DNA from: Bacteroidales bacterium
GTDB lineage: Bacteria > Bacteroidota > Bacteroidia > Bacteroidales > P3
NCBI GenBank assembly: GCA_017429685.1
Contig: JAFROL010000014.1
Span: forward strand, 1 to 32,001
DNA length: 32,001 bases
Direction: 5' to 3'
Below are positions 12,479 through 12,575 of this stretch, piece by piece. The position numbers were made by a program, and so were the translations under genes. How positions within the stretch are numbered: position 1 is the stretch's first letter; every line of letters starts with the position of its first letter. Below the pieces are notes generated by a model. The model ran no database searches. It was given only the letters and a program-made list of their open reading frames with translations, and had not been told where the DNA came from.

Positions 12479-12575
12479 CCCGTTGTACGGTATATGTACG
12501 CTATATGTACGGTATTTGTACGCTTCGAAAGCGTACAAATACCGTACATATAGCGTACATATACCGTACAACGGG
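12479..12575. repeat. Perfect 47-bp inverted repeat of 11-bp GTAC units
   Basis: Arms 12479-12525 and 12529-12575 are perfect reverse complements (47 of 47) around a 3-nt centre (CGA). Each arm is itself a tandem array of 11-bp units, GTACGGTATAT, GTACGCTATAT and GTACGGTATTT, plus a partial unit. GTAC therefore recurs at 12485, 12496, 12507, 12518, 12533, 12544, 12555 and 12566, one helical turn apart except across the centre. It sits between the divergent kamB and ptb genes and has no T tract, so it is not a simple terminator. It could be an operator array, a cruciform or RNA hairpin, or a dispersed repeat family. Confidence 0.95.

Follow-up and report, generated by a model that had tools for sequence, protein, structure and literature searches.

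REPINs, or REP doublets, are pairs of inverted short repeats that form hairpins, lie in extragenic space, reach high copy number and fall into several groups per genome (PMC3116915). In the part of that source drawn on here, the doublets are distributed randomly in extragenic space (PMC3116915), and a GTAG or CGTC tag is given as a REP feature in the part used of a second source (PMC3733652). The palindrome described here lies between kamB and a ptb-like gene in a window of 32,001 nucleotides (the whole stretch of DNA that was analysed), and about a hundred copies related to one another, this one included, are present in the genome (G000) of the uncultured gut bacterium, a member of the Bacteroidales. 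As in REPINs and the REP-RAYT system, within what the source used covers, these elements are inverted repeat pairs with a hairpin fold, are extragenic, and occur in many copies and several groups per genome (PMC3116915). They differ from the REPINs and REP-RAYT system of that account in that none of 15 matches to a RAYT (Y1_Tnp) is flanked on both sides by the repeat, that they are spaced strongly evenly rather than randomly, that their arms are arrays of 11-bp units, and that some of their positions are shared across species with changed units (PMC3116915). The tetramer CGTC adjoins some arrays in the related metagenome-assembled genome (MAG) Tb.RUG.238 (RUG238).

DUS, Chi and nucleoid-protein site dialects are familiar examples of short signals found throughout a genome that change sequence together from one species to the next. 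Our elements resemble them as a genome-wide signal with species dialects; those signals, however, are short motifs and not 100-bp palindromes of phased units. Porphyromonas gingivalis belongs, like the present genome, to the Bacteroidales. Its BrickBuilt MITE, in the part of the account used, has a 23-nt unit, 19 copies in one strain and one copy of 991 nt, and shares with our elements the Bacteroidales host, intergenic location, tandem units, long predicted stem-loops and limitation to species; it is, however, a direct array with a leader and a tail, whereas ours is a two-arm palindrome of 11-bp units (PMC4596501). The elements lack the 23-nt tandem unit and have a period of 11. TAACTGA heptamer repeats, as far as the portion of the source used describes them, likewise consist of short tandem units that are mostly intergenic, occupy many loci, occur in some Bacteroidetes and follow no functional pattern, but their unit is 7 nt, direct rather than inverted, and often adjoins start codons (PMC4679880). 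REPINs are the nearest known kind, with BrickBuilt and TAACTGA repeats farther off. Searches of open-access literature, a scope outside which most subscription journals fall, turned up no title or abstract on 11-bp-phased palindromes in Bacteroidales.

The first-pass annotation of the window had claimed error-free 47-nt arms of 11-bp units with eight GTAC, and both pairing and folding confirmed this (Table 1). The eight GTAC keep an 11-bp register, imperfect pairing carries the palindrome to 12468-12586 (58-nt arms, 95%), and the segment 12461-12593 has a predicted fold energy of -96.5 kcal/mol (z -16.9; none of 200 shuffles as good), the fold being very stable on both strands. Across 23 copies, mean information is 0.32-0.38 bit per column at -80 to -61 from the centre, compared with about 0.1-0.2 farther out. 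The early statement that the palindrome is not a terminator also held, as no terminator-like site was found in 12300-12800 and no stem with a T-run at the element. Rfam 15 gave no family at gathering score in 12200-12850; on the element itself it returned microRNA hairpin models alone, each below gathering score, as expected of a long hairpin. Directly 3' of kamB, window positions 11161-11313 carry tandem TAACTT (x12) and a 21-bp unit (x3), and the 21-bp-unit array overlaps the called end of kamB.

Table 1. Features of the kamB–ptb site, in window coordinates.
Feature	Coordinates	Strand	Basis or remark
Neighbour KamB, lysine 5,6-aminomutase reactivase subunit	11297..12313	-	NF052386, above cut-off
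Degenerate outer extension, left	12447..12467	+	Column information, 23 copies
Imperfect outer left arm (consensus of the family near ACCTTCTYCGCCC)	12468..12478	+	Pairing, copy alignment
Left arm, perfect; four GTAC (12485, 12496, 12507, 12518)	12479..12525	+	Pairing and fold
Loop CGA, 3 nt	12526..12528	.	Centre differs among copies: CGA, CGG, CCG, CAG, TCG, CTG
Right arm, perfect mirror of left; GTAC at 12533, 12544, 12555, 12566	12529..12575	-	Pairing and fold
Outer right arm, imperfect	12576..12586	-	Pairing, copy alignment
Degenerate outer extension, right	12587..12607	-	Column information, 23 copies
Neighbour phosphate butyryltransferase-like (ptb)	12777..13685	+	Best TIGR02706, below its curated cut-off

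A dispersed repeat family had been among the alternatives first raised, and this was borne out: when arrays were sought in the genome and its relatives, copies proved to be many in both. The genome holds at least 23 GTAC-type copies (centre matched, up to 3 mismatches) and a second family. All eight GTAC are in place in each of the 23, although these were picked by their centre alone, and they have in common an imperfect outer arm, close to ACCTTCTYCGCCC, which fades outward. With up to 2 mismatches allowed, the 17-mer unit pair matched 79 times on the forward strand and 77 times on the reverse, and its reversed control not at all. The unit families of this genome are GTACGG and a GTTC type with units GTTCTTATATC, the latter giving 79 forward matches to its 21-mer. 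GTTC-type copies with four units per arm have outer ends that resemble the GTAC type, and in the MAG RUG13410 outer arms are common to GTAC and GTCC types; because of these similarities, the families resemble a single lineage in which units have been exchanged. The element found no match in a phage or a plasmid collection, and a phage or plasmid origin was rejected on that ground.

Among the matches listed in a scan of contigs, copies are also many in the MAGs RUG238, RGIG6188, UBA3724, RGIG5467, Reindeer_2_mag_28 and RUG13410. A survey of 190 genomes of the taxonomic family with one motif (up to 3 mismatches), which other dialects could escape, placed the GTAC family in seven, all of the window's genus; several of these seven are probably the MAGs just named, since the coordinates are identical. 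Units are species-specific: GTACGG/GTACGC in G000 and RGIG6188, GTACAG in RUG238, GTACAG with GTACGC in G025, and GTACAA in RUG13410. The GTTC family gave 208 forward matches in RGIG6188, compared with the 79 of G000, and none in G023, G033, G034, G035, G005, G016, UBA3724 or RUG13410, while RUG13410 and G023 have further unit families of their own. G035, which groups with G000, RGIG6188 and RUG238 in a weakly resolved ptb nucleotide tree, yielded neither family in its 75% complete assembly. The distribution of the elements among relatives is patchy.

What defines the class is the 11-bp period and not GTAC. A palindrome scan over stretches of five genomes (398,792 bases of G000, 400,000 of RUG13410, 157,026 of G023, and 100,000 each of G035 and G016) found 51 palindromes, and the best internal period was 11 in 39, compared with a mean of 0.43 and a maximum of 3 in 200 sets with shuffled arms; the contigs were picked as long and some copies on them were known, so that about 10 of the 39 had been seen beforehand and the rest were new. 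By genome, period 11 accounted for 17/23 in G000, 18/21 in RUG13410, 4/6 in G023, 0/0 in G035 and 0/1 in G016, and with a lower threshold and larger tiles for 37/58 in G000, 41/56 in RUG13410, 4/12 in G023 and 0/2 in G016. The unit families include TGTCCGCTTGT/TGTCCAGTTGT and GTACAATATTT in RUG13410, and TTCTTCAGTAG and others in G023; judged by eye, units loosely fit S-T-N-C-N-N-T-N-N-T-T. Two relatives also carry long palindromes whose period is not 11 but 8 or 14 bp (L152:13393-13507, AAGAAGTTAAG..., and L201:462-572, TTTAAACT...), possibly other tandem-inverted repeats.

The two arms tend to vary together, with exceptions. In a set of 103 distinct GTAC elements taken from six genomes, those unit columns that vary mostly form Watson-Crick pairs of more than one type (column 22: GC 65, CG 12, AT 3, unpaired 23); these elements are kin, so that covariation cells are not independent, and they were picked by a pattern requiring all eight GTAC, so that pairing at GTAC itself is by construction and is no evidence. 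Units are identical between the arms in 18 of the 23 copies of G000, though the copies differ among themselves, which adds to the first-pass view of perfection as a sign of conversion or selection that arms are kept matched in most copies of the genome. Identity in all three spacers was likewise found in 8/13 copies of RGIG6188 and 22/46 of RUG238, and in none of 24 rows of G025, some of which are the same copy twice. The G025 arms are unlike at 6-9 of 21 spacer positions in every one of these rows, and the copies have much the same asymmetric unit pattern throughout.

Some positions recur between genomes. Among 58 RUG238 loci, which like those of G025 were selected for carrying the element, a GTAC-type element lies beside a shared gene for 9 of the 23 GTAC loci of G000, six of them by both flanks, and the units differ. 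Flank identity at these sites is 73-90%; flank distances are similar at some (69/60 and 102/113; 101/92 and 207/239) and differ more at others (28/186; 107/315). Of 23 orthologous gaps compared between G000 and RUG13410, elements occupy both genomes in 2, neither in 20 and G000 alone in 1, small numbers for which the hypergeometric P, calculated by hand, is 3/253; both shared sites pair a GTAC with a GTCC type. A further set of 52 orthologous-gap pairs, consisting largely of selected loci with some sites counted twice and for that reason kept out of any probability, gave 9 with elements in both, 43 in neither and no discordant pair, and 45 facing-gene clusters span at least two genomes among 222 element sites. 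From these comparisons, the element positions look old.

The kamB–ptb site itself varies. RGIG6188 keeps the element, in which the outer unit of each arm reads GC in place of GG, and a palindrome from a different family stands at the ptb site in G023. In G034 the same neighbours enclose a shorter gap without an element, and in G033 only about 50 bp separate the kamB and ptb matches; absence from relatives at the same site, which had at first been held to tell against the palindrome, is therefore real for these two, and with retention in RGIG6188 the picture is patchy. The intergenic DNA of relatives without the element is too diverged to align, and the boundary of the element is fuzzy across the 23 copies. 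In that alignment and in the element scan of the site, minus-strand loci such as G033, G005 and G025 kept their orientation, so that their rows present the wrong flank; the gap sizes given here come from correctly placed matches. RUG238 (L131) has about 3 kb between kamB and ptb at the orthologous locus, where part of the kamB region is matched a second time.

Elements of all families, taken as one series, are spaced much more evenly than by chance in the chromosome stretches sampled. No interval was shorter than 6 kb among 28 in G000 (36 elements in tiles; shortest 9,651 bp) or 38 in RUG13410 (41 elements in tiles; shortest 6,423 bp), where length-weighted random placement in gaps of at least 120 bp gave means of 6.5 and 9.0; an unweighted null agreed. 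The coefficient of variation (CV) of the intervals was 0.46 in G000 compared with 0.82 under the null (0/2000 as low), and 0.58 compared with 0.87 in RUG13410 (P 0.0015). On contigs with at least two known copies and against a uniform null, the eight intervals of G025 measured 8.7-17.8 kb (CV 0.24 vs 0.77, P 0.0007), and the 13 of RUG238, among the matches listed, were no shorter than 7.6 kb (CV 0.48 vs 0.78; evenness P 0.016, shortest interval P 0.004). Evenness within single families was mostly not significant alone. Families also avoid one another: the minimum cross-family distance was significant in G000 (P 0.007) and RUG13410 (P 0.003), the count below 6 kb in RUG13410 (P 0.003) and not in G000 (P 0.084), and avoidance over six whole contigs of G000 had P 0.034. 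Outside the tiles, 7,878 bp separate two G000 elements that belong to different families. As a control, 12 of 21 and 7 of 15 palindromes lacking the 11-bp period had an element within 6 kb. The even spacing suggests that the role of the elements is to mark or order the chromosome and not to regulate the genes beside them.

Elements are rarer in gaps between tandem genes. Such gaps made up 12 of 31 with an element and 257 of 381 without in G000 (gaps of at least 60 bp), and 18 of 39 and 201 of 295 in RUG13410, a contrast that weakens for gaps of at least 150 bp (P 0.07 and 0.02); the counts rest on heuristic gene calls from which ORFs covering an element were first removed, which makes "intergenic" partly a matter of construction. 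Inside heuristic ORFs of at least 100 aa lay 24 of 110 element rows, and these ORFs were taken as spurious. Median distances were about 120-190 bp to gene ends, and 166 and 192 bp to gene starts.

We consider these elements to be, at a probability of roughly 45%, chromosomal punctuation: a candidate structural set of mirrored 11-bp unit arrays with a predicted protein partner. Each consists of a very small loop flanked by a pair of inverted arrays, in which two to four 11-bp units can be recognised, and lies between genes, with roughly 6-50 kb from one element to the next. What matters would be structure, whether a hairpin or cruciform or a regular array of 11-bp protein sites meeting in mirror image. 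Because regular spacing is common to families of different sequence, architecture rather than sequence is best explained as the functional property. A putative bound protein, either tolerant of the unit dialect or co-evolving with it, would let the element act as a punctuation mark, for example an anchor or topological boundary. Within a genome, conversion may homogenise the copies, or selection may favour the dialect in use, and the arms may be kept true to each other by hairpin-templated repair or selection. Somewhat more tentatively, the genus as a whole may punctuate its chromosome regularly with 11-bp-unit palindromes, keeping architecture and spacing while the dialect is replaced between species and at least two dialects share one grid. 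If true, this would be an element of a new kind for organising chromosomes, whose structure and register count for more than its sequence. Even spacing, avoidance between families and shared sites with changed dialects make a testable case for a structural chromosome element, and for a putative protein or process of 11-bp register in gut Bacteroidales. Patchy presence counts against a universal chromosomal function, which one would expect to be harder to lose. The small orthologous-gap numbers, the unlike arms of all G025 rows and of over half the RUG238 copies, the cross-family count below 6 kb in G000, the mostly non-significant evenness of single families and the 3-kb kamB–ptb gap of RUG238 also tell against punctuation.

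The usual interpretation of dispersed palindromes is selfish REP/MITE debris, and the strongest rival to punctuation is a selfish, non-autonomous mobile repeat of REPIN- or MITE-like kind with mutual exclusion, because the distribution is patchy and the G025 copies share an asymmetric pattern. A putative transposase would spread the copies, target immunity would space them and conversion would homogenise old sites. We regard this as possible though rather doubtful. Presence in 7 of 190 genomes, G025 copies alike as if from one master, intergenic placement, and the shorter kamB–ptb gaps of G033 and G034, with no element in the latter, all fit it. Known transposon target immunity, however, is element-specific, whereas here families of different sequence avoid each other, and positions are held in common with RUG238 at 73-90% flank identity. 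Selfish debris does not easily account for even spacing, cross-family avoidance and positions that are shared although the dialect has switched; if the elements are selfish after all, spacing control across families would be equally unexplained. A transposase search covering the Y1 family gave 15 matches in six of the seven genomes, with GTAC arrays on both sides at none; an 11-bp palindrome lay within 1.5 kb at three of these loci (L173, L176, L180), which by hand calculation is about chance at one per 20 kb. RGIG6188 lacks a Y1 match yet has more GTTC-type matches than G000. A RAYT as mobiliser was not supported, the 15 Y1 matches of the seven genomes showing no linkage to arrays. One Y1 locus of G000 (L170, C50:128964-132305) encodes a RAYT-like transposase of about 149 aa among 80-268 bp repeats of its own, unlike the GTAC arrays.

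The remaining explanations account for less of the pattern. Transcribed from either strand, the element could form a long RNA hairpin and so block read-through or protect transcript ends at the border of transcription units, for which the very stable fold on both strands, the scarcity in tandem gaps and the 11-bp turn of A-form RNA all speak; this boundary at the RNA level is nevertheless unlikely, given the lack of a terminator-like site at the locus, the 10 of 29 element-bearing G000 gaps (at least 150 bp) between divergent genes, where a terminator is needless, and the absence of an RNA-level reason for even spacing over tens of kb. With their 11-bp direct repeats, the elements look like regulator half-site arrays, such as the GTTC-N7-GTTC half-sites of some LexA proteins, and might form a cooperative operator for kamB and/or ptb, or the sites of one regulon. 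By eye, however, no common theme emerged among proteins flanking the copies, the median distances to gene starts are 166 and 192 bp, and the spacing is even with other families at equivalent sites. We find this improbable, and the initial proposal of a cooperative regulator of divergent fermentation genes is not supported, given the missing theme and a spacing rule common to unlike families; a local regulon was rejected on the flanking proteins as read by eye. Perfect palindromes can arise through template switching, and an assembly artefact or a functionless product of replication slippage had been raised at the outset, but either alone is very unlikely indeed when similar structures stand at matching sites in independent assemblies and period 11 runs across unlike unit sequences.

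Arrays of 11-bp units without inversion occur elsewhere. In Flavobacteria, non-palindromic tandem arrays (GTACCTTATTT)n are found at L029:4469-4516, L113:5898-5956 and L051:5587-5623 near putative mnmE, directly 3' of it in L029 and about 1.7 kb from it in L113; by eye, the L051 flank resembles that of L029. Short tandem arrays of GTACCGTATAT, none of them inverted, are scattered over at least seven loci in the Paludibacteraceae genome Horse_feces149 (L055, L077, L108, L109, L116, L128, L129). Two related viral contigs (L132:10415-10451, L133:710-746) carry tandem, non-inverted 11-bp arrays, including the unit GTACGCTATAT, near genes read by eye as putative terminase subunits.
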